Assembly (NCBI GenBank): GCA_021776475.1
Contig: JAJFFV010000006.1
Coordinates: 248,001-312,000 of the forward strand
DNA: 64,000 bases
Origin: Parvularculaceae bacterium
GTDB taxonomy: Bacteria; Pseudomonadota; Alphaproteobacteria; Caulobacterales; Parvularculaceae
Direction of reading: 5' to 3'
Shown here: in pieces, positions 7,019 to 25,585 of the stretch
Position numbering within the stretch: the stretch's first letter is position 1
Layout: every line of letters begins with the position of its first letter
Notes under the pieces: generated by a model
What the model saw: only the letters and a program-made list of their open reading frames with translations
What the model was told of the DNA's origin: nothing
The model's database searches: none
Made by a program: the position numbers and the translations under genes

Positions 7019-8134
7019 ATGTTATACGAGTTTTTCTTTCCGCTCTCGGATGATTTCCAGATTTTCAACGTGTTCAAATATCTGACTTTCCGGATGGGTG
7101 GCGCGGTCATGACGGCGCTCCTGATCAGTTTTGTAATTGGGCCGTCTCTGATTGATTGGATGCGAAAAAAACAGGGCAGGGGTCAGCCGATCCGTGAGGA
7201 TGGTCCTCAAAGTCACATTATCGAGAAAAAAGGCACGCCAACAATGGGTGGTGTGATGATCCTGATTAGTCTTATCGCTTCCGTGTTGCTTTGGGCGCGG
7301 CTCGATAACCCTTATGTGTGGATTGTGCTTGGTGTCACAGCGGCATTTGGGGTTCTGGGGTTTGTTGATGATTATCTGAAAGTGACCAAACAGAACACGG
7401 CTGGGGTCATCGGCCGGGGCAAGCTGATATTTCAGTTCGCGGTTGCTCTGGTTGCAGCCTGGATTTGTGTCAAAGTGCTTGGCGGCGCTCCTGAAGTTTT
7501 GGGATTACCTGAAAATATTGAAACATCGGTGCCGCTGCCATTTTTTAAAGACTGGTTCTTGCCGCTCGGATTTATGTTCATCCCGTTTGCGGCGTTTATC
7601 ATTGTTGGCGCCTCAAACACTGTGAACCTGACCGATGGGCTTGATGGTCTTGCAATTGTGCCAGTGATGATTGCATCGGCCAGCTATCTTCTGATCTCGT
7701 ATCTGACAGGTAATGTTATTTATGCTGAGTATCTGCAGATCATTTTTGTGCCAGGCGCAGGCGAGCTTGCGGTCATCTGTGGTGCGATCATCGGGGCGGG
7801 ACTAGGTTTCCTCTGGTTTAACGCCCCGCCCGCTATGATTTTCATGGGCGACACGGGCTCGCTTTCGCTCGGTGGTGCCATTGGGACGATTGCCGTTGCT
7901 GCAAAACATGAGATTGTTCTTGCGATCATCGGCGGCCTTTTTGTTCTTGAAGGTCTTTCCGTCATGATTCAGGTGGCTTCATTCAAGCTGACCGGAAAAC
8001 GCGTGTTTCGGATGGCGCCGATCCATCACCATTTCGAACAAATGGGCTGGAAAGAGCCGACAATCGTCATTCGCTTCTGGATCATCGCCGTCATTCTGGC
8101 GCTGATTGGTCTCAGTACATTGAAATTGCGATAG
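7019..8134 (+). CDS. mraY: Phospho-MurNAc-pentapeptide transferase MraY
   Basis: MraY is the inner-membrane enzyme that transfers phospho-MurNAc-pentapeptide to undecaprenyl phosphate, making lipid I. The 371-residue protein is strongly hydrophobic with about ten membrane segments. Conserved cytoplasmic motifs are [14 protein letters not shown] with the paired aspartates, [18 protein letters not shown] and the C-terminal PIHHHFE. It lies 6 bases after murF. Confidence 0.96.
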
Positions 8135-8151: not shown

Positions 8152-9576
8152 ATGTTTGACTTTTCTCGCTATCACGATGAAGCGGTCGCTATTTACGGTG
8201 CTAGTCCGACAGGTCTGTCCGCCTACAGCGCACTTTATAAAGCAGGCGCACATGTTTTTATCTGGGACCAAAGCAAGAAAATCCGTGCCCGGCTAAAACA
8301 AGCGCAGATAAGATGTATTGATCCTCAAGAATGGCCCTGGGAAGAACTCGCGGTTCTGGTGCCGGATACGGCACCCCAGTCCGGCCTGGCGCTCAACCAT
8401 GTTATCATTCGAAAAGCGATCGCCAGCAAAATTCCGATCCATACTGATATCGATCTGTTCGCAACTTCTATGGAGCAGAAATCCGATGCGGCGCGGCCGC
8501 AAGTAATCGGTATCGCCGGTACCCACGGTAAGTCTGTCGCTGGCTCAATGATTACCCATATTCTAAAAGAAGCAGGCCGGGAGGTGTTTCACGGTGGCGA
8601 TAATGGCGTCCCAGTGCTCACCTTGGGTGAAGGCCGTGCGGACAGTACTTATGTTCTTGAACTTTCAACCCGAACATTGGCGTTCACCAGACAGCTGCGG
8701 TGCGATGCAGGAATACTGCTCAATCTGACTGGCGCAGATGTACGTTTCTTTGGCTCACCTGAAAAATCGATAAAATCGGCATCCCGGGTGTTCCGTAATC
8801 AGACTATGAATGATGCCCTGATTGTCGGTGCCGATGATACGATCTGCCAAAAGATATGCACTGCTCTTTCTTCCAGCACGATGCACGAGGCCTATGGGAG
8901 TGAGAACATTATTCCTGTTTCAGGTGAAGCAACGCTCGGGCAAGGGATATTCTCTCTCGACGGGCATATCTATGATGCCCGTTTCGGTAAGTCGGTACAA
9001 GTGGGCGATTTGACAAAGCCGCTATCGTGCGTCGGACCACATTTTAATCAGAACATCGCTGCCGTTTATGCAGCCTGCCTTCATATCGGAGCGACAGCTT
9101 CCCAGATTACAAAAGGCCTGCAGAGCTGGTCCGGTCTTTCCGGTTGCATGAATTATCTGGGCGAAGTGGATCATACCGTTCTGGTTGACGACAGCGCAGC
9201 GACCACCGTTCGCTCAACGCTCGGTGCATTGAAAGGTCCGCCAACTATTTTTTGGGTGGGCGGTGGCCGAAAGGGCAAGGTCAACTATGCCAGGTTTAAG
9301 GAAGCCGGTGAAACTGTTATCAAAGCCTTCCTGTATGGAGACGCCGCTGAGCTAATCAGGGCAGCCACCGCAAGTGCTTTTGATACAGAAATTTTTGCGT
9401 GTCCGGAAAAAGCCATGGGTCAGGCGATCACCGAAGCTTCGGCCTACGCGGCAAGCTCAAGCAATCAGGCCGTGACAATATTACTCTCGCCGGGATGTCC
9501 CGGCACCTCATCATCCTCTCTTTCCGCAATGATGAACAGGCAACTTCGAAAAAGGATGGAAGGAACTGCTGCGTGA
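8152..9576 (+). CDS. murD: MurD-like Mur ligase with degraded active site
   Basis: Position between mraY and ftsW, length (474 residues) and overall layout identify this as the MurD-position protein; MurD normally adds D-glutamate to UDP-MurNAc-L-Ala. The Rossmann N-terminus (YGASPTGLSA), a P-loop (GTHGKS, 123-128) and Glu170 (LELS) remain. Several residues invariant in MurD are replaced, taking E. coli numbering by eye: His183 by Asp (LTGADVRFF, 192-200), the carbamylated Lys198 by Ala (KSASRVF, 208-214), Asn268 by Phe (GPHFNQN, 295-301), Arg302 by Cys (GLSGCMN), Lys319 by Ala (DDSAATT, 346-352). The frame is intact and overlaps ftsW, so it is translated but may be inactive, altered in substrate, or a pseudoenzyme. 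Confidence 0.85.
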   Translation: MFDFSRYHDEAVAIYGASPTGLSAYSALYKAGAHVFIWDQSKKIRARLKQAQIRCIDPQEWPWEELAVLVPDTAPQSGLALNHVIIRKAIASKIPIHTDIDLFATSMEQKSDAARPQVIGIAGTHGKSVAGSMITHILKEAGREVFHGGDNGVPVLTLGEGRADSTYVLELSTRTLAFTRQLRCDAGILLNLTGADVRFFGSPEKSIKSASRVFRNQTMNDALIVGADDTICQKICTALSSSTMHEAYGSENIIPVSGEATLGQGIFSLDGHIYDARFGKSVQVGDLTKPLSCVGPHFNQNIAAVYAACLHIGATASQITKGLQSWSGLSGCMNYLGEVDHTVLVDDSAATTVRSTLGALKGPPTIFWVGGGRKGKVNYARFKEAGETVIKAFLYGDAAELIRAATASAFDTEIFACPEKAMGQAITEASAYAASSSNQAVTILLSPGCPGTSSSSLSAMMNRQLRKRMEGTAA

Positions 9577-10736
9577 GTTGGCTCAATGATCCAATCATCA
9601 ACAAGCGGTTTTCACCGCGTGATACTAGGTCGCTTGTTGCCGGCTGGTGGCACTCGGTTGATCATATGCTTGTCTATTGTGCCGGCGCACTGATCCTGAT
9701 AGGGGTTGTGCTTTGTTTCGCCGCGAGTCCGGGGACAGCAGCACGTCTCGGCATTGATAACAATTTTCATTTTATAGAACGTCAGATGGTGTTTCTGGCA
9801 CCCGCCATCGTGTTGTTGATCGGTATTTCTTTCTTGTCTCCCCTAATGGCGCGGCGGTCCGGTGTGCTATTGTTTGTCTCCGCCCTCGCGCTGATCTTGC
9901 TTGCTCTTTTTGTAGGTCCGAAAATCAATGGCGCGCATCGTTGGTTGTCACTTGGATCATTCAGTCTGCAACCATCGGAGTTTGCCAAAACGGGATTTGT
10001 TATCGCGGCAGCCTGGCTGCTAGCCGAGGGCTCGCATGACAAAAAGTTTCCAGGCGGATTGATCGCGATGGGATGCTATATGATGCTGGCGTTTATGCTC
10101 CTCATGCAGCCGGACTATGGTCAGTGGGCATTGGTGACAGCTGTCTGGGCGATGATGTTCTTTATCGCAGGTTGGAGCTGGATGTGGATTATGGTGCTCG
10201 GCTGCATTGCGGTAACTGCGGCGTCCCTCGGATATTTGTACGCGCCACATGTGGCAACCCGAATTGATCGTTTCCTACGACCGGCAGAGGGTGACACTTA
10301 TCAGGTCGACAAGGCGCTCGAAGCACTTTCAGGCGGCGGTGCCTTTGGCAACCCCGACACCGGTGTGAAGCACCAGTTGCCGGACGCACACACAGATTTT
10401 ATTTTTGCCGTGGCTGGTGAGGAATTCGGTTTCTTTTTATGCCTCGTCATTCTCGCAATATACGGCTTTTTCGTTTTCCGTGCCTTTCAGCTGGCCTCTC
10501 TAAAAGGCAGCATTTTCATACAGTGCGCTGTCTGCGGTCTTGCTGCGCAAATTGGTTTTCAGGCAATCGTCAATATTGGTGTTAATCTGCGTATGTTGCC
10601 GGCGAAGGGCATGACATTGCCATTTGTGTCCTATGGCGGCTCCTCTCTGCTGGCAACGGCGATAACTGTTGGCCTGATTCTGGCTTTGACGCGTAAGCAC
10701 TCGCGGGCGCGCAGCCGCAAAGAAATCATGCCGTGA
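9573..10736 (+). CDS. ftsW: Septal peptidoglycan glycosyltransferase FtsW
   Basis: FtsW is the SEDS-family polymerase that works with FtsI at the septum. The frame is open from 9399, but GTG 9573 overlaps the murD stop (GTGA), has GGAAGGA upstream at 9558-9564, and gives a normal 387-residue product. Multiple membrane segments are clear. Family blocks include LQPSEFAK, QPDYGQ, the HTDFIFAVAGEEFGF loop and LPFVSYGGSS near the C-terminus. Confidence 0.95.
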   Translation: MSWLNDPIINKRFSPRDTRSLVAGWWHSVDHMLVYCAGALILIGVVLCFAASPGTAARLGIDNNFHFIERQMVFLAPAIVLLIGISFLSPLMARRSGVLLFVSALALILLALFVGPKINGAHRWLSLGSFSLQPSEFAKTGFVIAAAWLLAEGSHDKKFPGGLIAMGCYMMLAFMLLMQPDYGQWALVTAVWAMMFFIAGWSWMWIMVLGCIAVTAASLGYLYAPHVATRIDRFLRPAEGDTYQVDKALEALSGGGAFGNPDTGVKHQLPDAHTDFIFAVAGEEFGFFLCLVILAIYGFFVFRAFQLASLKGSIFIQCAVCGLAAQIGFQAIVNIGVNLRMLPAKGMTLPFVSYGGSSLLATAITVGLILALTRKHSRARSRKEIMP

Positions 10737-11853: not shown

Positions 11854-13278
11854 ATGACTGACTCCCGCAAAATCAAGATCCGCCTGCCATTTGATATGCG
11901 CGGTATTCATTTTGTCGGTATCGGCGGTATCGGCATGAGCGGCATTGCAGAAGTGATGCATAATCTTGGCTACAACGTACAAGGTAGTGACCTTGCGGAC
12001 AGCGTTAACGTACAACGCCTCCGTGATAAGGGCATTCCGATTTCCATCGGCCACACCGAAGAGAACATCAAACGGATTGATGCCGTTGTAATTTCCACCG
12101 CAATAGGCAGCGATAATCCGGAAGTTGCGGCGGCACGAGCAAAACACATCCCGGTAGTACGCCGCGCCGATATGCTGTCCGAGCTTATGCGGCTGAAGTG
12201 GAATGTCTGCGTCGCAGGGACACACGGTAAAACCACGACGACCTCAATGGTTGCAGCATTGATGGACGCAGCAGGCCTTGACCCCACGGTTATCAACGGT
12301 GGTGTCCTCAATGCCTGGGGCACAAATGCCCGCATCGGTGAGGGCGACTGGATGGTCGTTGAAGCTGACGAAAGTGATGGCACATTCATCAGATTACCGA
12401 TTACTGTCGGCGTGATCACCAATATCGATCCGGAGCACCTTGACCATTACGGCGATTTTGAGAGCCTCCGAAACGCCTTTGACGAATTTATTGAAAACAC
12501 GCCCTTTTATGGGTTCGGTGTGGTCTGTCTCGATCATCCGGAGGTGCAGGCACTGGTCGGCCGGATAACTGATCGCAGGTTGATCACCTACGGCACCAAC
12601 CCGCAGGCGGATGTCCGCGCTGAGGACATCTCCTATATCGACGGTCACGCACAGTTTACGATCATTTTTCGCAAGCGAGGCAAGGAAGAGGCACGGCTCG
12701 AAAATGTCCGTCTGCCAATGCCTGGAGAACACAATGTCTTGAACGCGGTGGCAGCCGCCATTGTCGCTCGGGAACTTGGCGCCACCGATGATGATATCCG
12801 CAAAGGATTTGCCAAGTTCGACGGCGTCAAAAGGCGCTTCACGCGAGTCGGCAGCCATGATGGGATCACCGTTATCGATGACTACGGCCACCATCCGGTG
12901 GAAATCGCCGCGGTTTTGAAAGCGGCGAGGAACATCTGCACGGACCGCATCATCGCCGTTGTGCAGCCTCATCGTTATTCCCGCCTGCGTGATCTGTTTG
13001 ACGACTTTTGTGCCTGTGTTAACGAAGCAGACACGGTGATCGTCACCGATGTTTATGCAGCTGGCGAGAGCCCGATCAAAAACATAGACCAGCAGGCTCT
13101 GGTTGATGGCATGACTAGCCACGGCCACAAGGATGTCATCGCGCTGGGCAAGTGGGACGACCTTCCGACGCTGATCCGCAACAAAGCTTCGTCCGGAGAT
13201 TTTGTGGTTTGTCTCGGCGCAGGAGACATCACAAAACACGCAACCTTGCTGGTCCAGAAGCTTGCGGCAGCGGGGTAA
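11854..13278 (+). CDS. murC: UDP-N-acetylmuramate--L-alanine ligase MurC
   Basis: MurC adds L-alanine to UDP-MurNAc, the first peptide-forming step. The N-terminal [12 protein letters not shown] loop, ATP loop GTHGKTTTT (G at about 122), the EADESDG block, DPEHLDHYG and the C-terminal DDYGHHPVE and PHRYSR blocks are all intact. ATG 11854 is preferred to GTG 11851 because AGGA at 11844-11847 then has a usual 6-base spacer. Intact residues here contrast with the altered murD upstream. Confidence 0.96.
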
Positions 13279-13286
13279 TTTACCTG

Positions 13287-14207
13287 ATGGGTACACAGAT
13301 AAAATTGACGGCAGAAACAATGCCCGCTGTGCGTGGTAGATATATGTATGATGCAGCGATGTCAGCAATAACCTGGTTTCGCGTCGGTGGACCAGCGGAC
13401 GTCGTTTTCATGCCTGCGGATGAAGCAGACCTTTCGCAGTTTCTAAAAAATCTGCCGAAAGATATCCCCACTTATCCCATCGGTGTTGGCTCAAACCTTC
13501 TGGTACGCGATGGCGGATTACGCGGCATTGTCATTCGCTTAGGTGCACCATTCGCCAAAGTCAAAACAGACGGTATACGCGTGCGCGCCGGCGCGGCAGC
13601 ACTGGACGCAACAGTCTCAAAACGTGCCGCTGCCGCGGGGATTACCGGCCTCGAATTCTATCGCGGCATCCCTGGTTCAATCGGCGGTGCTTTGCGCATG
13701 AATGCGGGCGCCTATGGATCAGAAACGCGTCATGTTCTTGTTGAGGCTGTGGCACTTGATCGGCAAGGCGACCGCCATGTCTTCACCAATGATCAAATGG
13801 GATTTAGCTACCGAAACTCAAAAGTTCCCTCAGAGATGATTTTTATTGAAGCGATCTACAAAGGTGAACAAGGCGACCCTGCGGAAATTACCAACCGCAT
13901 GGAAGAAATCATGCGCAAACGAGAAGAAACCCAACCGATCAAGGAGCGCACTGGCGGGTCAACGTTCAAAAACCCCGCGCCGAAAACCTCAGGCGGACGC
14001 TCTTCATGGCAGCTTGTTGAGGCAGTTGGCGGTCGTGGTCGTATCTTAGGGGACGCGCAAGTCTCCGAGCAGCACTGCAATTTCCTGATCAACCGCGGTC
14101 ACGCAACGGCCTCCGATCTCGAAAACCTAGGCGAAAGTGTTCGCGCCGATGTGCTTCGGGAAACCGGGGTCGATTTGCATTGGGAGATCAAACGAATAGG
14201 GGAGTAA
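13287..14207 (+). CDS. murB: UDP-N-acetylenolpyruvoylglucosamine reductase MurB
   Basis: MurB is the FAD enzyme that reduces the enolpyruvyl product of MurA to UDP-MurNAc with NADPH. The frame opens at 13152 inside murC, but ATG 13287 gives the expected N-terminus leading to TWFRVGGPAD. FAD-binding blocks GVGSNLLVRDGG and RGIPGSIGGALRMNAGAYG are present, and the catalytic serine lies in GGSTFKNP (about Ser225). The layout fits type I MurB of 306 residues. Confidence 0.94.
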   Translation: MGTQIKLTAETMPAVRGRYMYDAAMSAITWFRVGGPADVVFMPADEADLSQFLKNLPKDIPTYPIGVGSNLLVRDGGLRGIVIRLGAPFAKVKTDGIRVRAGAAALDATVSKRAAAAGITGLEFYRGIPGSIGGALRMNAGAYGSETRHVLVEAVALDRQGDRHVFTNDQMGFSYRNSKVPSEMIFIEAIYKGEQGDPAEITNRMEEIMRKREETQPIKERTGGSTFKNPAPKTSGGRSSWQLVEAVGGRGRILGDAQVSEQHCNFLINRGHATASDLENLGESVRADVLRETGVDLHWEIKRIGE

Positions 14208-14208
14208 A

Positions 14209-14259
14209 ATGCCCACTAAAAAGATTGTACTGGCAGGGTCAGATTTACTCGAAATTTAG
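14209..14259 (+). other. 16-codon open frame between murB and ddl
   Basis: ATG at 14209 is preceded by GGGGAG at a good distance and opens a frame for MPTKKIVLAGSDLLEI before TAG. It starts 2 bases after the murB stop. It could be a leader peptide, the remnant of a displaced ddl start, or chance. Nothing in it matches a known family. Confidence 0.25.
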
Positions 14260-14282
14260 GAGTTACAGAAGAAAACGATATA

Positions 14283-15206
14283 ATGAACAAACCCCTGAAA
14301 ATAGCGGTCTTGAAAGGCGGCTGGTCGGATGAACGCGAGGTGAGCCTCGTCTCTGGAAAAGCTGCCGCTGGCGCATTGCGCGCGTTTGGCCACGATGTTA
14401 CCGAAATTGACGCCACGCCTGATCTCGCCAGTCAACTGAAAGATGCAGCGCCGGATGTCGTCTTCAACGGGTTGCACGGCGCATGGGGCGAAGACGGTTG
14501 TATCCAGGGTTTGCTCGAGGTACTCGCCCTGCCATACACGCATTCTGGCGTCAGGGCGTCATCCCTTGCCATGGACAAAGAGTGCACCAAACAACTGCTC
14601 CGATCGAACGGCGTTCAGGTGCCGCAAGGCCGTATCGTCTACTCCCTGGAAGAGCTTGCAAGAGTTAATATCGCAAGGCCACTGGTGATGAAACCGAACG
14701 CCTCAGGCTCGTCTGTTAATATTCATATCTTGCGAGAGGGTGACAACCGGCCCCTTGAGGCCCTGACTGGATCAGATGAAGATATGGCGCACGGCGTGCT
14801 GGTCGAAACGTTCATTCCCGGCCGTGAGTTGACCGTGGCTGTCATGGGCGATACGTCACTTGCGGTCACGGAAATCCTGCCAAATAAAGAGTTTTATGAC
14901 TATGAGGCAAAATATGCAGATGGCGGCTCGTCCCATTTAATTCCGGCAGATCTGCCGGATAAAGTGACTGAGGCCTGCCTTGAGTTAGCGCTCAAAACCC
15001 ACCAGCTCGTCGGCTGCCGCGGCCTCACCAGAACTGATTTTCGTTACGATGAATCGCGCGGCGTTAACGGACTATTCATCTTAGAGATTAACACTCAGCC
15101 AGGTCTAACTCCTACCTCTCTCGCGCCGGAACAGGCCCTCGCACAAGGGATCAGTTTCGACGAATTGGTGTCGTGGATGATCGGAGATGCGTCATGCCGA
15201 AGGTGA
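14283..15206 (+). CDS. ddl: D-alanine--D-alanine ligase
   Basis: Ddl is the cytoplasmic ATP-grasp enzyme that makes the D-Ala-D-Ala dipeptide used by MurF. Ligase blocks include GGWSDEREVSLVSG near the N-terminus, HGAWGEDG, the KPNASGSS loop, EILPNKEFYDYEAKY and the metal site EINTQPGLTPTSLAPEQA. The length of 307 residues is standard for DdlB. The stop overlaps ftsQ by 13 bases. Confidence 0.95.
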   Translation: MNKPLKIAVLKGGWSDEREVSLVSGKAAAGALRAFGHDVTEIDATPDLASQLKDAAPDVVFNGLHGAWGEDGCIQGLLEVLALPYTHSGVRASSLAMDKECTKQLLRSNGVQVPQGRIVYSLEELARVNIARPLVMKPNASGSSVNIHILREGDNRPLEALTGSDEDMAHGVLVETFIPGRELTVAVMGDTSLAVTEILPNKEFYDYEAKYADGGSSHLIPADLPDKVTEACLELALKTHQLVGCRGLTRTDFRYDESRGVNGLFILEINTQPGLTPTSLAPEQALAQGISFDELVSWMIGDASCRR

Positions 15207-16090
15207 GCGGCACTAAAAAAAAGCAGACATACAGCAGGCGGAAGACTTCTGGTTCCCGTCAAAAAAAGCCGGATGGTTTTTTGACGCAGGCAGGTGCCGC
15301 TCTGGATGATTTTCTACAACGGGCGATCCGGGTTCTGGTGACATACACTGCCGTATGCGTAACCGGCTGCGTGATCGTTTTTGTCATGATGCTCTTCGCG
15401 GGTGGTTATTTTTTTAATGTCGGCGCCCGTATCGCTAATCTCTCTAAAGAGGTCTCTAAAGGTGCGGGTTTTGAAGTGACAAGGGTAACCCTCAAGGGCG
15501 GCCAAAAAACCAGAAATCACGATATCCTGAATGCGCTGTATGACAAAGAGGACGGCCAGCCAATCGGCCGGTCCCTACCGCATTTCGATTTGGAGGATGC
15601 GCGCCGCCGGGTTGAAGATATCGGCTGGGTCAACCATGCGGCGGTCGCCCGGCTGTGGCCGAATACCATTCATATTTCCGTCAGCGAGCGGACGCCAGCG
15701 GCGTTGTGGCAACCAACTGGGGCAGGGGAACTGTTCCTGATTGATAATGAAGGCGCTGTGATCACTGAAGTAGGCGGTCATCAGTATACGGGTCTGCCGT
15801 TAATCATAAATACGGATGACCCTGAAAAAGCCAAGGGTGTCCTGAGAGAGCTCTCCCGTTTCCCCGAGCTTGCCTCGCGCATTGCCGCGCTTCGTCAGCA
15901 AGGTAATCGACGCTGGGATCTGGTTTTCCGGAACGATTTCTTGGTGATGCTGCCGGAAAAGGACTACCGCGCCGTCATCGAGAAACTCGTCAGCCTCGAG
16001 GCTGAAGAGAGCGGCCTTTCGGAGAGTCTCAAATATATGGATGTACGTGACACAAAGACGGTTTATTATCGGCCAAAAAAACAGAATTGA
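15194..16090 (+). CDS. ftsQ: Cell division protein FtsQ
   Basis: FtsQ is a bitopic divisome protein linking early and late division proteins. It has a basic cytoplasmic tail of about 50 residues (KKKQTYSRRK and similar), one membrane segment at about 52-78, and a periplasmic POTRA region with LPHFDLEDARRRVEDIGWV and WPNTIHISVSERTPAALW, both typical. ATG 15194 was chosen because GGAG at 15183-15186 is well placed; an upstream in-frame ATG at 15173 lies in ddl. The length is 298 residues. Confidence 0.9.
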   Translation: MPKVSGTKKKQTYSRRKTSGSRQKKPDGFLTQAGAALDDFLQRAIRVLVTYTAVCVTGCVIVFVMMLFAGGYFFNVGARIANLSKEVSKGAGFEVTRVTLKGGQKTRNHDILNALYDKEDGQPIGRSLPHFDLEDARRRVEDIGWVNHAAVARLWPNTIHISVSERTPAALWQPTGAGELFLIDNEGAVITEVGGHQYTGLPLIINTDDPEKAKGVLRELSRFPELASRIAALRQQGNRRWDLVFRNDFLVMLPEKDYRAVIEKLVSLEAEESGLSESLKYMDVRDTKTVYYRPKKQN

Positions 16091-16100
16091 AAGTCCTTTG

Positions 16101-17408
16101 ATGCATCGACGTAAATTCTCTATTTCCTCTTTTTCAGCCGCCAATGAGCCCGGACTTGTGGGTGTTTTGGATATTGGCGCTTCAAAAGTCTCCTGTTTCA
16201 TCGCCTATCTGATGCCAGATGCCGTCGATGGTCAGGACACTGAAATTATTGGCGTCGGTCATCACGCAAGCAGCAGCATCGGCGAAGGTGGGCTGGTCGA
16301 GCTAGCTACTGATACAAGCGTGCGCGCTGCGATTGGAAAGGCCGAACGCATGGCCAGCAAGAAACTTACCTCATGGCATGTGGCTGTTTCTGGTCGTCAT
16401 GTTGCCTGTCGCCGTCTAGCGGCTGATCTTGATCTTGGCGGCCATGCCGTCATGGAAGAAGATCTGGCTGATTGTTATCAGGAAGGTGCTGCCTTTGCCA
16501 CCGCTGAAAAGATGACCCCGCTGCACATTTGGCCGTCGTCTTTTTCAATTGATGGTCTTGATGATGTGCGTGATCCGCGTGGTCTAGTGGGCGATCAGCT
16601 TTCGGTTTTTCTGGTCGGCCTGTCCGCATCGCAAACCGCGATTGCCAATATCATCAACTGCCTCGATCGCTGTCATGTCTCTGCTGCGAGTTTTATTGCT
16701 GCGCCTTATGCTGCGTCGCTGGCGGTGTTGCGGGAAGAGGAGAAATCGCTAGGCGTCCTCTGCCTCGATATGGGTGCCAATCTGACCGGATTCACGGTGT
16801 ACAAAGATGGCCACCTCGTTTTCGCGGGCGCCGTACCGCTTGGCAGCAATCATATTACGCAGGATATAGCGCAGATTTTTAATCTTGGCACTGCTTCGGC
16901 CGAACGGGCCAAGACGGTCTTTGGCACTGGCTACTGCGCCCCCGGGGACGATAATCGCTATGTTGATGTTGCCGAGCGTATTGAAAACAAACAAGTATCC
17001 GTTGCCTCACTGGCGGAAGTTATAGGCCCCCGGCTCGAAGAAATTTTTTCCCTGGTGACCCAGTCGATCGCCAATGCCGGCTTTGACCCGGCATTGCTGC
17101 GCCGGATAGTTATTACCGGAGGTGGCAGCCAGCTACAAGGCATCTGTGAGCTGGTTGAAAACCTGCAGGACGCAAAGGTCCGGATCGGTCGCCCCTTGAA
17201 CATTTTCGGTGCACCGGAAGCGGTGAGCGGGAGTGCTTTTGCTGTTTGCGCCGGCATGATCCGGCATCTTGTGGTCGAGAGCGAAAGCCAGTCCTACAAC
17301 ATTCCCCGTTTTTTGGCAGCAGCGACGACCAACGCATCACACGCGGCTGCGACTTCTGCAACCAACCCCTTGTACAAAGCAGCAGGCTGGTTGCGAGACC
17401 GGTTCTAA
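16101..17408 (+). CDS. ftsA: Cell division protein FtsA
   Basis: FtsA is the actin-like protein that tethers FtsZ to the membrane. The actin-fold phosphate loops VLDIGASKV and CLDMGANLTG, the adenosine block TGGGSQL, and a C-terminal amphipathic stretch ending NPLYKAAGWLRDRF (membrane-targeting helix) are visible. The frame opens at 16041 inside ftsQ; ATG 16101 gives a 435-residue product with a normal N-terminus. It is the last gene of the run: a terminator follows, with no ftsZ. Confidence 0.93.
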   Translation: MHRRKFSISSFSAANEPGLVGVLDIGASKVSCFIAYLMPDAVDGQDTEIIGVGHHASSSIGEGGLVELATDTSVRAAIGKAERMASKKLTSWHVAVSGRHVACRRLAADLDLGGHAVMEEDLADCYQEGAAFATAEKMTPLHIWPSSFSIDGLDDVRDPRGLVGDQLSVFLVGLSASQTAIANIINCLDRCHVSAASFIAAPYAASLAVLREEEKSLGVLCLDMGANLTGFTVYKDGHLVFAGAVPLGSNHITQDIAQIFNLGTASAERAKTVFGTGYCAPGDDNRYVDVAERIENKQVSVASLAEVIGPRLEEIFSLVTQSIANAGFDPALLRRIVITGGGSQLQGICELVENLQDAKVRIGRPLNIFGAPEAVSGSAFAVCAGMIRHLVVESESQSYNIPRFLAAATTNASHAAATSATNPLYKAAGWLRDRF

Positions 17409-17425
17409 CCGAGACGGGTTCCCCC

Positions 17426-17465
17426 AAAAAAACGCCGCTACCTGAAGATAGCGGCGTCTGATTTC
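17426..17465. terminator. Bidirectional terminator after ftsA
   Basis: A perfect 9-bp inverted repeat, ACGCCGCTA (17432-17440) and TAGCGGCGT (17449-17457), with an 8-base loop. Seven A (17426-17432) flank it on the left, giving a T-tract for minus-strand transcripts, and TGATTTCTTTT lies on the right. It sits between the convergent ftsA and M13 peptidase genes and probably serves both. Confidence 0.85.
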
Positions 17466-17484
17466 TTTTATTGGGACCGACTGC

Positions 17485-19554
17485 CTACCATATCCGTACC
17501 CGGTCTTCCGGTGCCAGATACAGCGCGTCATCTTCGGTCACACCGAACGCCTCGTACCAAGCGTCCATATTGCGGACGACACCGTTGGTTCGGTATTCAG
17601 AAGGAGAGTGTGGATCGGTTGCAAGGCGCACTTTCAACTCATCCTCGCGATATTTCCGCTTCCAGACTTGTGCCCAGGCCATAAAGAAACGTTGGTCACC
17701 TGAATAGCCGTCGAGCTCTGGCGCGTCGTCATCGCCAAGAGACAGTTTGTAGGCATCATAGGCCATGGTCATACCGCCGAGATCGCCGATATTCTCGCCC
17801 ATTGTAAGGCCTGGGTCTACAAACATGCCTTCAACCGGGGAAAAGCCGCCATATTGCTCGCCCAGCTTGTCAGCTTTCATCTGGAATCGTGCGGCGTCTT
17901 CTTCTGTCCACCAGTCGCGCAACAGGCCGGTGCCGTCGGATTTGCGACCCTGATCATCAAAGCCGTGACCGATTTCATGACCAATCACCGCACCGATGCC
18001 GCCATAATTCACAGCATCGTCAGCATTAGGATCAAAGAACGGTGGTTGTAGGATCGCTGCCGGGAATACGATTTCGTTCATTGGCGGATTGTAATACGCG
18101 TTCACGGTCTGCGGGTTCATGAACCATTCGGTCCGATCTATCGGCTTGCCAAGCTTGGAAATATTGTCATTCCAGCCCCATTCGTTCGATCGTTTGTTGT
18201 TGCCATATGCGTCACCATCAATAACTTCCAGGTCAGAGTAATCTTTCCATTTGTCGGGATAACCAATCTTGGTGTTGAAGGCGTCAAGCTTGGCATAAGC
18301 TTCCTGCTTGGTTTCTTCCGTCATCCAGTCAAGATTTTCTAGCCGCGCCCTGAAGGCCGTCTTCAGATTGCCGACAAGTTCTTCCATTTTCGCTTTGGAG
18401 TCAGCAGGGAAGTATTCATCAACATAAACCTGACCGACAGCTTCGCCGAGAGTACCGTTGACAGCGCCAACGCCGCGTTTCCAACGCTCACGCTGTTGTG
18501 GTGTACCGCGCAGAGCTTTACCGTAGAAAGCGAAGTTTGCTTCATCGATTGCGCTTGGCAAAACGGCCGAGTTGTCTGACAGGTAATGGACTTTCATATA
18601 GTCCTGCCACACCGCGACGGGTGTGTCACGAAAGACCGTACCCGATCCCCGAATAGCGTCGTTCTCCCGCAGTACAAATTCTGTTTCAGCGCCGAGGCCC
18701 GCTTCATCCAGCATCGCACTCCACGGAAAGTCTGGTGCATAAGATTGAAGCTCATCAAGCGTGTACAGATTATAGGTTAGATCACGGTTGCGGCGTTTGG
18801 CCGGCTCCCAATGCACCTTAGCGAGGCGTTCTTCCAGTGCATAAACCGCTGCTGCCCGTTCTTCAACATTGTCCATGCCGACCAGCATCATCATTTCGGC
18901 AAGGAACGCTTTGTAGGCTTCGCGCTTGTCGGCAAAATCATCGTCGAAATAGTAAGTCTTGTTCGGCAAGCCCAGTCCCGCTTGACCCATATAGGTCACA
19001 TAGCGGTCCGGCTGCTTGGAATCGACATTGACGAACGCGCCGATCGGGCTGTCGACACCAAGCGGTACATTGCCGAAGGCGCGGGCGACATCGCCGTGCG
19101 TCTGTATCGCGTCAATAATGGCGAAATCAGCTTCGAGAACCGACAGGCCTTTTGCGTCTATGGCATCAGTGTCAAGGAAGCTTGCATAAAAGTCACCGAT
19201 CTTCTGCTTGATAGACCCGTTTTCGGCATTGGCCGATGCGGCGTCTTCAATAATGCCTTTGGTCCGCTCTTCGGAGCGCTCAAACAGCACCGTAAAAGAA
19301 CCATAATTCGAAAATTCCGGCGGAATTTCAAAATTGTCGAGCCATATTCCGTTTACATGGCGGAAAAAATCGTCACCAACACCGACCCTTGTATCAATAT
19401 CAGCAAGAGTGACACCCCAATTGCCAAGTTCCGGGCTCGTATCAACCACAACCGATTCAGTTTCTGTCGTTTCAGGTGCGGTGATTTCAGCTGGTTCGCT
19501 GCCACAGGCGACAAGCGCCAGTGAGGCGGCACCGCACAGCAGTAAATTTCTCAT
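17485..19554 (-). CDS. M13 family metallopeptidase, lipoprotein
   Basis: A neprilysin/PepO-like zinc endopeptidase, probably periplasmic and lipid-anchored. The N-terminus is a lipoprotein signal ending in the lipobox LVAC at about residues 14-17. The 689-residue chain has the M13_N region followed by the catalytic domain with NAYYNPP, the zinc site HEIGH (in VIGHEIGHGFDDQG), the downstream glutamate in GENIGDLGG, and a C-terminal VRIW resembling the family's conserved end. GGAG precedes the start on the minus strand. It faces ftsA and shares its terminator. Confidence 0.93.
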   Translation of the reverse strand: MRNLLLCGAASLALVACGSEPAEITAPETTETESVVVDTSPELGNWGVTLADIDTRVGVGDDFFRHVNGIWLDNFEIPPEFSNYGSFTVLFERSEERTKGIIEDAASANAENGSIKQKIGDFYASFLDTDAIDAKGLSVLEADFAIIDAIQTHGDVARAFGNVPLGVDSPIGAFVNVDSKQPDRYVTYMGQAGLGLPNKTYYFDDDFADKREAYKAFLAEMMMLVGMDNVEERAAAVYALEERLAKVHWEPAKRRNRDLTYNLYTLDELQSYAPDFPWSAMLDEAGLGAETEFVLRENDAIRGSGTVFRDTPVAVWQDYMKVHYLSDNSAVLPSAIDEANFAFYGKALRGTPQQRERWKRGVGAVNGTLGEAVGQVYVDEYFPADSKAKMEELVGNLKTAFRARLENLDWMTEETKQEAYAKLDAFNTKIGYPDKWKDYSDLEVIDGDAYGNNKRSNEWGWNDNISKLGKPIDRTEWFMNPQTVNAYYNPPMNEIVFPAAILQPPFFDPNADDAVNYGGIGAVIGHEIGHGFDDQGRKSDGTGLLRDWWTEEDAARFQMKADKLGEQYGGFSPVEGMFVDPGLTMGENIGDLGGMTMAYDAYKLSLGDDDAPELDGYSGDQRFFMAWAQVWKRKYREDELKVRLATDPHSPSEYRTNGVVRNMDAWYEAFGVTEDDALYLAPEDRVRIW

Positions 19555-19768
19555 GATCGTCTCCTTGTTTCCCTCAAGGAACGCACCCGCGCCCCAAGGC
19601 CCGAGAGATTAAAGAATTCAATATTATCCGCAAGTTACCTGCAATTAACTTATCCTGCACCGCGTGATCTTTGTGGCCCGCAGCAAGTCCTGCTGTTGAT
19701 TGAAATTGCTGGAAAATCAGCAACAGGGCTCGTATCACCCTGTGAAAATGAAGGTTCGCCCAAGTCCC

Positions 19769-20341
19769 ATGTCAAAGCTCTATTTTTCGTACTCCGCCAT
19801 GAACGCCGGTAAATCCACCGTCCTCTTACAGGCAGCTTGGAATTATCGCGAACGCGGCATGTCGCCTCAGCTTTATACCGCGGCGATTGACAATCGCGAC
19901 GGGGCTGACAGGGTTACATCGCGTATCGGTATTGAAGCTGAGGCGAGAACCTTTACGCAAGGGTCTGACCTGTTCCTGGAGATCGGCGCACTGGGGACAT
20001 GTCATGCTGTGTTGTTTGATGAGGCCCAGTTCCTGACAGACCTGCAGGTCTGGCAACTTGCCAAGGTCTGCGATGAGCTTAGTATCCCAGTCCTCTGTTA
20101 TGGGTTGCGTACTGACTTTCAAGGCAAACTATTCCCCGGCAGCGCCGCGCTCCTCGCCATCGCCGACAATCTGCGCGAGATCAGGACGATCTGCTGGTGC
20201 GGTAGCAAAGCCACCATGACTCTGCGTCTCGACCCCGACGGAAAACCTGTTGAAGAAGGCGAACAGGTCGCTGTGGGTGGAAACGAGAGTTATATCTCGC
20301 TTTGCCGCAAGCACTGGCGATCAGGCGAGCTTGGAAAATGA
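19769..20341 (+). CDS. tdk: Thymidine kinase
   Basis: Phosphorylates thymidine to dTMP with ATP in the salvage pathway. ATG 19769 gives [17 protein letters not shown], the typical family start, with the Walker A loop at about 12-17. DEAQF is the Walker B and catalytic glutamate region. The lasso and zinc part show CWCG, KATM and YISLCRKHW, fitting a structural zinc site. The product is 190 residues. The frame is open further upstream with a TTG at 19700, judged unlikely. Confidence 0.93.
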
Positions 20342-20390
20342 GGTTGACCGGCACTTGTGAAAAACGTACTCACACCGGCTTGATGAATTC

Positions 20391-20465
20391 GCCGCGGTAG
20401 CTCAGTGGTAGAGCGCACCCTTGGTAAGGGTGAGGCCGAGAGTTCAATTCTCTCTCGCGGCACCA
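20391..20465 (+). tRNA. tRNA-Thr (GGU anticodon)
   Basis: A complete cloverleaf can be drawn. The acceptor stem is GCCGCGG with TCGCGGC (one G-U pair); the D arm contains AGCTCAGTGGTAGAGC; the anticodon stem CACCC/GGGTG (20418-20432 region) closes the 7-base loop TTGGTAA with anticodon GGT at 20423-20425; the T loop is TTCAATT. The discriminator is A and CCA is encoded (20463-20465). Confidence 0.95.
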
Positions 20466-20547
20466 TTCATCTCTTTGCGGTGGCAAGCGCCGGCGAACGG
20501 TAGCATGATAAGCAAGAGTCCATTTTTTACGCCCCGAGGCTAAGCGC

Positions 20548-20721
20548 GTGACAGACCAGCCTGACGATCAGAAATCCGAAAAACGCCAGGAACCTGCCGC
20601 AAAAAAAATCACGACGCCGGCCAAAAAAACTGACAAACAGACCCGCGAAGAAAAACTCGCTGAGGCTTTGCGTGCCAATCTGAGGCGGCGCAAACAAGCA
20701 GCGCGAGACAGGAAAGACTGA
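20548..20721 (+). CDS. Small basic conserved protein upstream of murA
   Basis: A 57-residue frame from GTG 20548 to TGA 20721. The product is very charged, with a lysine-rich N-terminal half and a C-terminal helix containing [21 protein letters not shown] recall a small hypothetical protein with such an [14 protein letters not shown] end directly ahead of murA in alphaproteobacteria; its function is unknown. It ends 4 bases before murA. A GTG start without a strong Shine-Dalgarno is the weak point. Confidence 0.7.
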
Positions 20722-20725
20722 CCCA

Positions 20726-21991
20726 ATGGACAAACTGGCAATCATCGGCGGCAGGCCGCTTTACGGGCGTCTGCCGATTTCTGGTGCCAAAAATTCAGCC
20801 TTGAAGGTCATGGTGGCATGCCTTCTGACCGACGAGCCACTGACTCTGACAAACGTCCCTGATCTTGCTGATATCAGGCAGTTGACGGCGCTGTTGGCGC
20901 AGCACGGCGTCGAGATCTCGCGTGATGGCAACACCTTGACCCTCCATGCGGCCTCGATCTCTTCAACTCTTGCACCCTACGATTTGGTGCGAAAAATGCG
21001 TGCGAGTTTCAATGTGTTAGGGCCACTTCTTGCGCGTGAAGGTGAGGCACGAGTGTCGCTGCCAGGCGGTTGTGCCATTGGTGCGCGGCCGGTCGATCTG
21101 CACCTGAAAGCATTTGAAGCACTGGGTGCCTCGATTGAACTGGACGAAGGCTATGTCATCGCCAAGGCCAAGGGCGGCTTTCGCGGTGCAAAGGTTACCT
21201 TCCCGTTTGTCTCCGTTGGTGCAACCGAACACACGATTATGGCCGCCACGCTGGCGGATGGCGAAACCGTGCTCGACAATGCAGCCCGCGAACCGGAGAT
21301 TGTCGATCTCGCCAATTGCCTGATTGCGATGGGTGCTAATATCAAGGGCGCCGGGACACAGACGATCACCATAAACGGTGTCGACAAGCTTGGCGGGACG
21401 CAGCACATGGTCCTGCCGGACCGAATTGAAACAGGCTCCTATGCCATGGCCATTGGTATCACCGGCGGCGAACTGACGCTTGAAAACGCCAGAGCCGACC
21501 TTCTCGGTGCTGCAATCTCTACACTGATCGAGTGCGGTATCGAAATCACCGAAACCGAAAATGGTTTGCGGGTGAAGAAAAACGGTGGTCGGATCAAAGG
21601 CGCAGATGTGGTCACACAACCCTATCCCGGGTTTCCGACGGATCTGCAGGCACAGTTTATGGCGCTGATGGCGACAGCAGATGGGTCATCAACGATCAAG
21701 GAAACCATTTTTGAAAACCGCTTCATGCATGTTCCTGAACTTGGCCGGATGGGCGCCGATATCCATGTTGATGGCCAGGTAGCCTCCGTCCGCGGCAAGC
21801 CTAAGTTGAAAGGCGCGCAAGTTATGGCGACCGACCTGCGGGCGTCTATGTCACTGGTCCTGGCCGGCCTTGGCGCAGAAGGTCAAACGATGATTTCACG
21901 GCTTTACCACCTGGATCGCGGGTTTGAGCATCTCGAAGAGAAACTACAAAATGTCGGCGCGCTGGTTGAGCGTGTGCGCAACCAGAACTAG
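20726..21991 (+). CDS. murA: UDP-N-acetylglucosamine 1-carboxyvinyltransferase
   Basis: MurA transfers enolpyruvate from PEP to UDP-GlcNAc, the first committed step of peptidoglycan synthesis and the target of fosfomycin. The N-terminal GAKNSALK, the active-site cysteine (about Cys116 in GGCAIGARP), the [10 protein letters not shown] block and the C-terminal [13 protein letters not shown] block are intact. The length is 421 residues. The Cys-containing loop predicts fosfomycin sensitivity at the target. Confidence 0.97.
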
Positions 21992-22001
21992 ATAACGGTT
22001 T

Positions 22002-22454
22002 ATGAAACTCAAAAACTATACGCCCCTGCGCCTCGTAGCTGCTGATCCTGAAGATATCGACGTGGTCTCTGCCTGCCTGCAGGACTCGGTGATGAAAGTA
22101 GGGGACCTGGTCTATGTGCCAAGAGAGCGGCGCTTTGCGTTCGTCACCAATCGTTTTATCTGGGAAGAGGGTAGTTCACGAAAACGCGGTCCATTCGTTC
22201 GGGTCCGTACCGGCGTTCATTTTGACGATGTGACTGGTGTCAAAGTCCGCAATATCCGACAGGATGCCAAATCGGCGGTCATCTCGTTGCTGGCTGTGCG
22301 CTTTGAGCGTGAAAGCGAAAACAGCGATAAAATACTGCTGGAATTTGCCGGCGGTGGCGAAATTGTGCTGAAGGTCGAGGCTGTTAACGCGGTGCTGACG
22401 GATATCTCGGAGCCCTGGCGGGCCCAAAGCAAACCCGAGCACGGGCTTGCTTGA
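22002..22454 (+). CDS. DUF2948 family protein
   Basis: A 150-residue cytoplasmic protein of the DUF2948 family, recognisable from PLRLVAADPEDIDVVSACLQ near the N-terminus and the CxxR-free RRFAFVTNRFIWE block that follows. The function is unknown. It lies 10 bases after murA, as in many alphaproteobacteria. The usual next gene in such runs, hisD, is not present here. Confidence 0.85.
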   Translation: MKLKNYTPLRLVAADPEDIDVVSACLQDSVMKVGDLVYVPRERRFAFVTNRFIWEEGSSRKRGPFVRVRTGVHFDDVTGVKVRNIRQDAKSAVISLLAVRFERESENSDKILLEFAGGGEIVLKVEAVNAVLTDISEPWRAQSKPEHGLA

Positions 22455-22553
22455 TCAGACCGGACGGTACATTTGTCTCTGCCGCTGGTGCTGGTCGCAT
22501 TCGCGAACCGCTGATAAGAGGGCAAGGACGAGTGAGCGAGGCATTAAATCGGC

Positions 22554-23054
22554 ATGAGCACCGGCAGATCATCGATAAAAGCGCCCCGGCTTGTACGCAT
22601 TGAACTTGATGAGCGTTCGCTGGCGCCCGCCAACGCCGACATCGAGCATGAGCGCAAAATAGCGGTTTATGACCTTATTCAGGACAATAAGTTCGAGCCT
22701 GTGGGTGAAACGGCTGCCATCGGTGAGGGGCCATTCGTCCTCTATTTATCATCTGCTGAGGGGCGTTTGGTTATGGATGTCCGGCGCGAGGATGAGGCCC
22801 CTGTGGGCCAGCTACATCTTTCGATGGCACCGCTACGTAAGATCATCAAAGACTACTTCATGCTCTGTGAAAGCTACTATGATGCGATCCGCAACGCGGC
22901 TCCGCAACAGATCGAGACGATCGATATGGCGCGGCGGGCGGTGCACAACGAAGGATCGGAGATCCTTGAGGCGCGATTGAAGGACAAAATTCTGGTCGAC
23001 TTTAGCACCGCGCGCCGGCTCTTCACGTTGATCTGCAGCTTTTATTTGAAATGA
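22554..23054 (+). CDS. UPF0262 family protein
   Basis: A 166-residue protein of the UPF0262 family, with typical blocks RLVRIELDERSL, EHERKIAVYDL and DYFMLCESYYDAIR. No biochemical role is established. Its stop overlaps the next gene in an ATGA, so the two are probably translated together. Confidence 0.87.
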   Translation: MSTGRSSIKAPRLVRIELDERSLAPANADIEHERKIAVYDLIQDNKFEPVGETAAIGEGPFVLYLSSAEGRLVMDVRREDEAPVGQLHLSMAPLRKIIKDYFMLCESYYDAIRNAAPQQIETIDMARRAVHNEGSEILEARLKDKILVDFSTARRLFTLICSFYLK

Positions 23055-23503
23055 CACGAATGGCGGATCTTGAACCAGGCACTCTTCGTACAGCCACAAA
23101 GGGAATTCTATTCACCTGTAACATGAATTCTGTTCGCTCGCCCATGGCTGAGGCGATGGCGCGGCAAATATTGGGCGATACGCTCGAGATCGCATCTGCC
23201 GGGATTTACCAGGGCGGCCTCGATCCCTTTGTCGAGGTGATCATGCAGGAAATCGGAATCAATGTTGATGGGCATGAGCCCCGGGAATTCTCCGATCTGG
23301 ACACACTGGACTTCGATCTCGTCATTGCACTGACACCGAAGTCAGCAGAAGAGGCGATGAAATACTTCGATCCCCACAAAATCGAATTTTGGGATACGCC
23401 GAACCCAACCGATGTCCGGGGCAACCGCGATACAATGATGGAAGCCTATCGCGAAGCGCGTGAATTCTTGAAAAAGCGAATTTCAGAGCGCTTTTCCGCG
23501 TAG
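23051..23503 (+). CDS. Low molecular weight protein-tyrosine phosphatase family
   Basis: A 150-residue cytoplasmic protein with the phosphatase/arsenate-reductase loop C-x5-R as CNMNSVRS (Cys23 to Arg29) and a late aspartate in WDTPNPTD that may act as general acid. The family contains protein-tyrosine phosphatases and thioredoxin-type arsenate reductases. The conserved place between UPF0262 and infA in alphaproteobacteria argues for a housekeeping role, but the substrate is unknown. Confidence 0.85.
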   Translation: MTRMADLEPGTLRTATKGILFTCNMNSVRSPMAEAMARQILGDTLEIASAGIYQGGLDPFVEVIMQEIGINVDGHEPREFSDLDTLDFDLVIALTPKSAEEAMKYFDPHKIEFWDTPNPTDVRGNRDTMMEAYREAREFLKKRISERFSA

Positions 23504-23595
23504 GGCGCGTCTTAGAACTTGCTTTTTGACACAGTCCCCCCCATTTTCCCGTTTCATCAGGCCCAGAGGGATATTTCGTCCAACCGAGGAGGACT

Positions 23596-23814
23596 ATGGC
23601 GAAGGAAGAATTACTCGAGTTTTCAGGTACGGTAGAAGAACTTTTGCCGAACGCGACTTTTCGCGTGAAACTGGAAAACGATCATGAAATTATTGCGCAC
23701 ACTGCCGGTAAGATGCGCAAGAACCGGATCCGTGTCCTTGCCGGGGACAAAGTGCTGGTTGAAATGTCCCCCTATGATTTGAGCAAGGGCCGAATCACCT
23801 ACCGGTTTAAATAA
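23596..23814 (+). CDS. infA: Translation initiation factor IF-1
   Basis: IF-1 binds the ribosomal A site during initiation. The 72-residue S1-like OB fold is complete: [19 protein letters not shown] at the start, [19 protein letters not shown] in the middle, and [10 protein letters not shown] at the end. A strong GAGGAGG precedes the ATG. TTGACA at 23526-23531 may belong to its own promoter, though no good -10 is seen. Confidence 0.97.
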
Positions 23815-23828
23815 TCGCCGCTGCTGAA

Positions 23829-24407
23829 GTGGTTCAATTTATCCTAGCCAGTGCATCGCCCCGAAGGCGAGATCTCCTTGATCAGATTGGCATCATTCCG
23901 GATAAAGTCTTTGCCGCTGATATTGATGAAACGCCGCTGAAGGCCGAGATTCCGGATCGCTATGCCGCGCGACTGGCGCTAGAAAAAGCGCAGGCGGTCT
24001 CAAAAGCGTTCCCGGAAGCGGTTGTTTTGGGATCGGATACTGTTGTTGCCTGCGGTCGCCGTATCCTGCCAAAAGCAGAAACAGAAGAGCAGGCGCGTGA
24101 TTGCCTGACGCTTATGTCCGGTCGCTCGCACCGCGTTTATACAGGCATTTGTCTCGCGGGACCGGGTGACCAGCAGCGCCAACGTCTCGTTGAAACACGT
24201 GTCAAAGTAAAACATCTGTCTACTGAAGAGATTGTGATGTATCTTGCCAGTGGAGAATGGCAGGGAAAGGCGGGTGGTTACGCCATTCAAGGGCTCTTCG
24301 CGTCCTGCGTCATTTCCATCATTGGTTCGTATTCCAGTGTCGTCGGCCTACCGCTTTACGAAACGGGAAACCTGCTGAAAGGAGTGGGTCTCAAGCCCAA
24401 AACATGA
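23829..24407 (+). CDS. maf: Maf-like nucleotide pyrophosphatase
   Basis: Maf proteins hydrolyse non-canonical or selected nucleoside triphosphates and have been linked to septum inhibition. The start is GTG 23829. Diagnostic blocks are LASASPRRRDLL, VLGSDTVV, LMSGRSHRVYTG and KAGGYAIQG. The length of 192 residues is normal. The stop overlaps the next gene in an ATGA. Confidence 0.93.
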   Translation: MVQFILASASPRRRDLLDQIGIIPDKVFAADIDETPLKAEIPDRYAARLALEKAQAVSKAFPEAVVLGSDTVVACGRRILPKAETEEQARDCLTLMSGRSHRVYTGICLAGPGDQQRQRLVETRVKVKHLSTEEIVMYLASGEWQGKAGGYAIQGLFASCVISIIGSYSSVVGLPLYETGNLLKGVGLKPKT

Positions 24408-25585
24408 CCTCTATTTTGCTTATTGAGGAAAGCCCCGCTGAAACCAGGGCAGCGCTTGTTGTTGGCGATGCCCTACATGGCCTTTGGTTCTCAGGTGAAG
24501 AGGTGATTGGCGGGACTTATCTTGGTAAAATCGGTCGGATCGACAAAAAGCTTGCAGCCGCCTTTGTCGATATTGGCATTGGTCAGGATGGGTTTTTGCC
24601 GTTGCGAGATAATCCAGTTGTTAGCGAAGGCGCATCAATCCTTGTGCAGATAAAACGCCCGGCCAATGCTGGCAAGGGCGCGCTTTTGACCGCAAATGTC
24701 ACGCCTGATGTGTCTCTGCGGGCAAAAATCGAGAGTGAACAGCCACCCGCCCGGCTTGACCTCGAAACCCACCCGGCGATTAGCGCTTTCAGTCATTTTG
24801 CCGCCCGGGGTCTGCAACAGGTACTGGTTGCGGGCACAGAGAGTTTTTTGGCCCTTCAACAACATGTCAGTGGATTGACCGACGAAGATACTGTCGCCGT
24901 TGAACAGGACCAATCGGACAATTTGTTTGAGCACAAAGGTATTGAAGAGGCGGTTGAACAGGCTCTCTCGCGTACGATCAACTTGCCGGAAGGCGGGCGC
25001 CTTGTGTTCGACGAAGTTGAAGCGTTAACGGCTGTAGACGTTGATGTCGCCGCGACGCCGGGACAGTCAAAGCGCGGTTCGATCATCAAAGCGTGTTCGG
25101 CCGCGATCCCCGAAATTCTCCGCCAACTAAGACTGCGCCGTATCGGCGGACAGGTTGTCATCGATTTTCCTGCATTGGCGGTTAAAGGCGGCGGGCAGAT
25201 CCAGAGCCTGTTAAAGAAACATGTAAAGCCAATGACCGGCGGACGTCTTGGCCGGATCGATGACAACGGGCTTGCCACATTAATCCTGCCGCGCAAACAG
25301 GCGACATTGCTTGATCTGCTGACGGAGCATTTCGGGGCTGGCCCGATACAGGGTCGCCGCCTGACCGCAAATACGATCTCCGCGAGCTGTCTCAGGCAAG
25401 CGGAAACCGCCCTGAAACAAAACCCCTCGGCAAAAATCGAGGTAAGAGCGGCAGCTGAGGTCACAGACCTCATTACAGCAAACCCGGACTGGACAACCAA
25501 TCTGACAAAAAGATATGGTCTGCGGTTGAAGCTGACCGCGCAGGAAAACACGGCAAGGGAAACGTTCGATGTCCGGGAAGTCTAA
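24404..25585 (+). CDS. Ribonuclease E/G family protein, short form
   Basis: An RNase E/G family endoribonuclease of 393 residues, shorter than E. coli RNase G (about 490). An S1-like segment lies at about 30-90 (GGTYLGKIGRIDKKLAAAFVD), and the catalytic metal-binding aspartates are visible in ALTAVDVDVA and GGQVVIDFPAL. The CPxC zinc-link motif of RNase E is absent, as is any long C-terminal scaffold. ATG 24404 overlaps the maf stop; a longer frame from 24257 lies in maf. Conserved linkage maf-rng-yacG supports the call. Confidence 0.87.
   Translation: MTSILLIEESPAETRAALVVGDALHGLWFSGEEVIGGTYLGKIGRIDKKLAAAFVDIGIGQDGFLPLRDNPVVSEGASILVQIKRPANAGKGALLTANVTPDVSLRAKIESEQPPARLDLETHPAISAFSHFAARGLQQVLVAGTESFLALQQHVSGLTDEDTVAVEQDQSDNLFEHKGIEEAVEQALSRTINLPEGGRLVFDEVEALTAVDVDVAATPGQSKRGSIIKACSAAIPEILRQLRLRRIGGQVVIDFPALAVKGGGQIQSLLKKHVKPMTGGRLGRIDDNGLATLILPRKQATLLDLLTEHFGAGPIQGRRLTANTISASCLRQAETALKQNPSAKIEVRAAAEVTDLITANPDWTTNLTKRYGLRLKLTAQENTARETFDVREV

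Follow-up and report, generated by a model that had tools for sequence, protein, structure and literature searches.

The division and cell wall (dcw) cluster of a Parvularculaceae bacterium lies within the 64,000-nucleotide stretch of DNA analysed here (the window; GenBank assembly GCA_021776475.1, contig JAJFFV010000006.1, positions 248,001 to 312,000), and we examined the protein encoded at its murD position, between mraY and ftsW in the usual gene order. A preliminary description had stated that this frame has no stop across 474 codons, is translationally coupled to ftsW and lacks five normally invariant MurD residues. The frame, at 8152-9576 on the forward strand, is indeed a 474-codon open reading frame without an internal stop. 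A GTG able to start ftsW shares four bases (GTGA, 9573-9576) with the stop of the murD-position gene, and this overlap makes the predicted coupling plausible. The best NCBIfam match of the window protein is murD, at 195.2 bits and under the curated cut-off of 211.95, and a genome-wide search with the murD model (TIGR01087) scored it at 194.8 bits, under the same cut-off. Pfam (E <= 0.01) matches its Mur ligase middle domain only; when it was compared with canonical MurD, the three-domain MurD fold was found to be present. AlphaFold2 run on the single sequence gave a predicted local distance difference test score of 36, and the model was not used. A direct scan for relatives using the window protein returned 14 stretches that fit a pattern, none of which was confirmed. 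The features of the locus are as follows.

7019-8134, forward strand: mraY, upstream neighbour of pseudo-murD
8152-9576, forward strand: pseudo-murD at the dcw murD position, encoding a full-length protein of MurD fold without the catalytic residues
8518-8535, forward strand: P-loop GTHGKS, residues 123-128 (E. coli G111-S116), retained
8659-8661, forward strand: E170 (E. coli E157), retained
8737-8739, forward strand: D196, replacing His183
8779-8781, forward strand: A210, replacing the carbamylated Lys198
9043-9045, forward strand: F298, replacing Asn268
9142-9144, forward strand: G331, replacing His301
9145-9147, forward strand: C332, replacing Arg302
9190-9192, forward strand: D347 (E. coli D317), retained
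9196-9198, forward strand: A349, replacing Lys319
9573-9576, forward strand: four-base overlap (GTGA) between the stop of pseudo-murD and the presumed start of ftsW, with predicted translational coupling
9573-10736, forward strand: ftsW, downstream neighbour of pseudo-murD, start chosen at the overlap

Residues were compared in a MAFFT alignment of 63 rows, comprising E. coli MurD, 45 dcw-position proteins (30 of them from genomes without the MurL homologue described below, hereafter MurL-negative) and 17 second MurDs, and are numbered as in the E. coli MurD literature, with Met1 not counted. All five proposed substitutions are real in this alignment (H183 to D196, K198 to A210, N268 to F298, R302 to C332 and K319 to A349), and since none of the 30 aligned copies from MurL-negative relatives has lost any of the five, these residues are normally invariant as claimed and their replacement goes beyond chance. 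P-values for the residue comparison do not account for shared descent. The P-loop lysine and the Glu157 equivalent, also said to remain, align as K127 (K115) and E170 (E157), and D317 is retained as D347. Further changes are D182 to Ala, Y194 to Ser, H301 to Gly, K348 to Gly, S71 to Asp and P72 to Thr, and F422 of E. coli MurD is removed by a short gap. The roles of K115, S116, E157, D317, N138, N268, N271, D182 and H183, and of K319, K348, S415, F422, S71 and P72, follow general knowledge of MurD, N138, N268 and N271 being the presumed adenine contacts; a literature search turned up no paper that lists them. According to excerpts of PMC4816537, the carbamylated K198 stabilises Mg2+ and R302 serves as an ADP contact and hinge; D182, K348 and K319 are also discussed in excerpts of PMC8788868.

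It had been suggested that a true MurD is encoded elsewhere, and a second MurD-type ligase does lie in the same genome (contig C5, 1446650-1447960; 230.6 bits on the murD model, over the cut-off). Its gene overlaps that of a 454-aa MurL homologue, which matches NF041275, a MurL model named for Xanthomonadales, over nearly its whole length at 312 bits (model cut-off 700). However, the C5 enzyme has the MurD2 signature, Glu at D182 and Arg at K348, together with Lys at K198, and so resembles the L-Glu-adding MurD2 and not a D-Glu-adding MurD. Excerpts of PMC8788868 report that the two signature changes decide L-Glu use by X. oryzae MurD2, and name Parvularcula among the bearers of MurD2/MurL. 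The expectation that a MurD2 would keep the catalytic lysines did not hold up: the family's second MurDs keep K198 (17/17) but have Leu at K319 (16/16) and Arg at K348 (16/16 rows with a letter there). The window protein itself was considered as a MurD2 and rejected, as it lacks K198, E182 and R348 (Ala, Ala and Gly, respectively), its neighbours are mraY and ftsW, and MurL is not adjacent.

Model searches found neither MurI nor Dat over the cut-offs in the window genome. Across 61 genomes, the MurI model has no match above 29 bits in any of 37 family members, while among 24 genomes from other families of the order, 21 have MurI matches of at least 119 bits (15 over the cut-off) and the remaining three have Dat matches of at least 247 bits. 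In none of the 18 MurL-positive genomes does the best Dat-model match exceed 161 bits, compared to 223-291 bits in 18 of 19 MurL-negative family genomes (the exception, G035, is 84% complete and has 149 bits), a contrast of scores and not of presence, as only three of the 61 genomes pass the Dat cut-off. The window genome evidently uses the known MurD2/MurL route, as far as its gene content tells. D-Glu would most likely enter peptidoglycan by ligation of L-Glu followed by epimerisation, because the MurD2-MurL pair is present and MurI and Dat have no match over the cut-offs. MurL-positive genomes seem to be without free D-Glu, so that a canonical MurD would have been left without its substrate after MurD2/MurL took over. 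As a separate observation, the genomes G040, G044 and G048, together with MurL-negative Parvularculaceae, have no MurI match and a strong Dat-model match, which would make three possible D-Glu routes within one order.

Of the 61 relatives searched, 18 have MurL; among 62 Parvularculaceae it is present in 20, the two extra MurL-positive genomes (G096 and G108) sharing the coordinates of G076 and G063. A MurL scan for named relatives, keeping the best 80 of 174 relatives, names Aquisalinus flavus, A. luteolus and several Parvularcula as bearers; the window genome shares the genus code of Aquisalinus. In the dcw slot of the 20 MurL-positive Parvularculaceae, 15 genomes have a copy without the catalytic residues (a dead copy), which in G022 is truncated at 389 aa by the end of the contig. 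The copy of G010 is partly degraded and that of G076 nearly intact, and in three genomes (G001, G003 and G005) no dcw MurD copy was found. About 166 bp lie between mraY and ftsW in G005, and 5.8 kb of other genes in G003; the G001 contig runs out past ftsW, and the window protein has only a weak match there (22.6 bits). The G003 insert at the murD place (L064:1110-6882) encodes a 714-aa ATPase/nuclease-like protein and lipoprotein-like, TetR-like and hydrolase-like proteins, all named by eye.

The 15 dead copies keep none of D182, H183, Y194, N268, H301, K319 and K348, and K198 is kept in two, yet all 15 keep G111, G114 and K115 of the P-loop and also D317. E157 is kept in 12 of 15 and R302 in 13 of 15, with Val in G012 and Cys only in the window copy. 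Position 301 is Gly in 15/15 dead copies and His in 29/30 active copies, and H301 to Gly, N316 to Asp and A343 to Gly are new residues across the clade (14/14). The 30 aligned MurL-negative copies come from 43 genomes, of which 12 were not fetched and one had no match; family-wide, 37 of 42 MurL-negative genomes have one MurD (348-396 bits), and the other five, which are less than 90% complete or more than 5% contaminated, have no MurD at E <= 1e-38.

The dcw MurD of G010 has E157 to Lys, D182 to Val, K198 to Met, K319 to Ser, K348 to Gln and S415 to Pro and keeps 99 of 114 active-invariant residues, while that of G076 keeps 108 of 114 and differs, among the listed sites, at G73 and S415. These two copies look like earlier stages of displacement. 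The MurL proteins of both genomes are divergent (41% identity to that of the window genome for G010, 33% for G076 L102), which suggests that they were acquired separately. G010 (L032/L072) and G076 (L193, Marinicaulis sp. OFTM304) each have MurD2-MurL as well as a dcw MurD, partly degraded in the former and nearly intact in the latter.

In quick trees, used throughout for both MurD and species, the 14 dead copies included group together with an SH-aLRT of 100, and the active MurDs of the family are their sister group. Most simply, catalysis would have been lost once, followed by retention across the genera coded g1, g3, g5 and g8; separate losses in each MurL-positive genus were considered, but in the MurD tree these copies fall together. 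An approximately unbiased test on MraY and FtsW does not reject holding 17 MurL-positive genomes (without G010) together (p 0.416). The free MraY and FtsW tree places the MurL-positive genomes as a grade around MurL-negative members, so that the order in which MurD2/MurL was gained and lost is only partly settled.

The ratio of non-synonymous to synonymous change (dN/dS, by NG86 with bootstrap ranges) is 0.063 in one close pair of dead copies (dS 0.545; 0.039-0.093) and 0.075 in another (dS 0.633; 0.049-0.109), and taken domain by domain it ranges over 0.045-0.094 across all three domains; neither pair has internal gaps. In the same two pairs it is 0.061 and 0.076 for MurD2, 0.097 and 0.148 for MurL, 0.042 and 0.069 for FtsW, and 0.019 and 0.014 for MraY; eight active MurD pairs span 0.033-0.257. 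Neutral simulation at the dS of each pair (300 runs) gave mean amino-acid identities of 0.33 and 0.31, with maxima of 0.40 and 0.35, whereas the observed identities are 0.936 and 0.912. Taken alone, the absence of stops is a weak test for the GC-rich pair (simulated mean 1.9, minimum 0) and a stronger one for the other (mean 7.4, minimum 1).

Outside the family, we examined 18 MurL-positive genomes of other groups, chosen by us from the 80 loci kept in the MurL scan. In all 18, ftsW follows mraY without room for murD and no MurD-like match lies between MraY and FtsW. The MraY and FtsW matches are no more than 101 bp apart in 16 genomes, and the other two genomes have distances of 285 and 569 bp. 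The murD model, run on 15 of the 18, has its sole match over the cut-off next to MurL. Since the slot is empty throughout, murD deletion is the rule in this MurL-positive sample, and retention of a dead copy was seen only in Parvularculaceae.

With catalytic motifs lost on a retained fold and purifying selection afterwards in the two close pairs, the window protein is very probably conserved and not a D-Glu ligase, and we consider it probable, on these comparisons, that it is a conserved pseudoenzyme derived from MurD. The data suggest a dead MurD preserved by selection and reused for something besides catalysis. On the tree, the dcw MurD lost its metal, D-Glu and UDP-sugar residues once, in an ancestor of several Parvularculaceae genera, and it has since stayed full length and in place, its three-domain fold and P-loop lysine kept under the strong purifying selection seen in the close pairs. 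The preliminary description had proposed that it may bind nucleotide without ligation. This is possible, since the protein no longer has the residues for ligation and every dead copy keeps the P-loop glycines and lysine. We infer that ligation is gone, that nucleotide may still be bound and that the protein may work by contact. Tentatively, it could be a nucleotide-binding scaffold or regulator, switching between open and closed forms, that holds or tunes Mur enzymes between MurF/MraY and FtsW/MurG, or tunes MurD2. Put more specifically, and with similar reserve, the idle MurD might act as a nucleotide-responsive, non-catalytic organiser of an MraY-FtsW-MurG/Mur-ligase assembly or as an allosteric partner of MurD2. 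Such roles fit the locus, and the MurE-MurF/MurG and CwlM/MurA contacts discussed below are precedents in kind.

Several observations weigh against a conserved, nucleotide-binding pseudoenzyme. Any such role, including a scaffold role for FtsW/MurG, must be dispensable in a sister lineage if it is real, given that G001, G003 and G005 yielded no copy. The presumed adenine contacts N138, N268 and N271 are mostly lost in dead copies, which weakens the case for ATP binding, S116 is Ala in one dead copy, and the window copy itself has no R302. Two saturated pairs of dead copies (dS > 1) have dN/dS of 0.29 and 0.44 (0.39 and 0.38 for MurD2 in those pairs), and at FtsW identities of 0.5-0.6, mean identity is 0.29 for dead copies, 0.39 for MurD2 and 0.60 for active MurD. 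We read this as constraint that loosened or changed early and is strong now.

The best-surviving alternative is a neofunctionalised ATP-dependent enzyme that kept Mg-ATP chemistry (P-loop, E157, D317 and mostly R302) and acts on another substrate with the newly fixed G301, D316 and G343. The low dN/dS of the close pairs, the three clade-wide replacements and the universal P-loop lysine would all fit, but the H183 and K198 positions hold eight and seven different residues in the 15 dead copies (the alignment is gappy in some rows), unlike a conserved new active site, and E157 is lost in three, which makes this reading unlikely. Far less probable is a decaying relic, with murD an ordinary pseudogene in the making after the MurD2/MurL takeover; the loss of catalytic residues tracks MurL, the slot is empty or without a found copy in the genomes named above, and deep divergence is faster, with raised dN/dS in the saturated pairs, but dead copies keep open frames (that of G022 up to its contig end) and the close pairs are far more alike than neutral drift allows. 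That the frame is kept only as a spacer for ribosomes to reach ftsW is barely credible despite the overlap with the presumed ftsW start, since coupling opposes stops and frameshifts and not amino-acid changes, and leaves dN/dS near 0.06 unexplained, and absence of the gene is tolerated in G005. A still-active D-Glu-adding MurD with a rearranged active site has the full fold and P-loop in its favour and is just as hard to believe, with D182, H183, Y194, H301, K319 and K348 kept in no dead copy and no D-Glu source over the cut-offs. The pseudogene, spacer and active-MurD explanations were rejected on dN/dS in the two close pairs and on the lost catalytic residues.

Compared to E. coli MurD (TIGR01087), the proposed pseudoenzyme is without the catalytic Lys/His, D-Glu and UDP-sugar residues and scores below the curated cut-off. 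The window genome has a MurD2-MurL pair like that of Xanthomonas (PMC8788868), but the window protein is neither partner and instead the displaced MurD; the available excerpts of that paper say nothing about an inactive MurD being kept. Mycobacterial CwlM is, in excerpts of PMC4946905, a peptidoglycan-enzyme homologue whose enzymatic function is non-essential and which activates MurA by contact; it belongs to an amidase family and not to the Mur ligases, and serves as an analogy only. In Bordetella, MurE-MurF binds MurG (excerpts of PMC6420597), a precedent for cytoplasmic Mur assemblies, but one made of active enzymes, with no dead ligase in the abstract. In the open-licence literature we found no Mur ligase described as a pseudoenzyme, and no inactive retained MurD in titles or abstract openings among the matches listed. 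Displacement by MurD2/MurL is already known; a displaced MurD kept as a conserved pseudoenzyme did not come up in these searches. If this reading is true, catalysis would not be the only task of MurD on which selection can act, its structural role being split from its chemical one, and Aquisalinus provides relatives both with and without the dead MurD for testing. A caution also follows for annotation, as a gene called 'murD' from its place in the cluster may encode a dead protein, with the working enzyme elsewhere.

Other Mur ligase-like genes occur in the window genome. On contig C2, L011:7034-8452 (reverse strand) encodes a further, unassigned Mur ligase of 472 aa that is Mpl-like and lies under both curated cut-offs (Mpl, 216.9 of 388.7 bits; MurC, 226.9 of 335.1). 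On C5, positions 12000-30000 (L012) hold two neighbouring open frames, of 991 and 616 aa, that each match the Mur ligase middle domain and, guessing from size, may be cyanophycin-synthetase-like.
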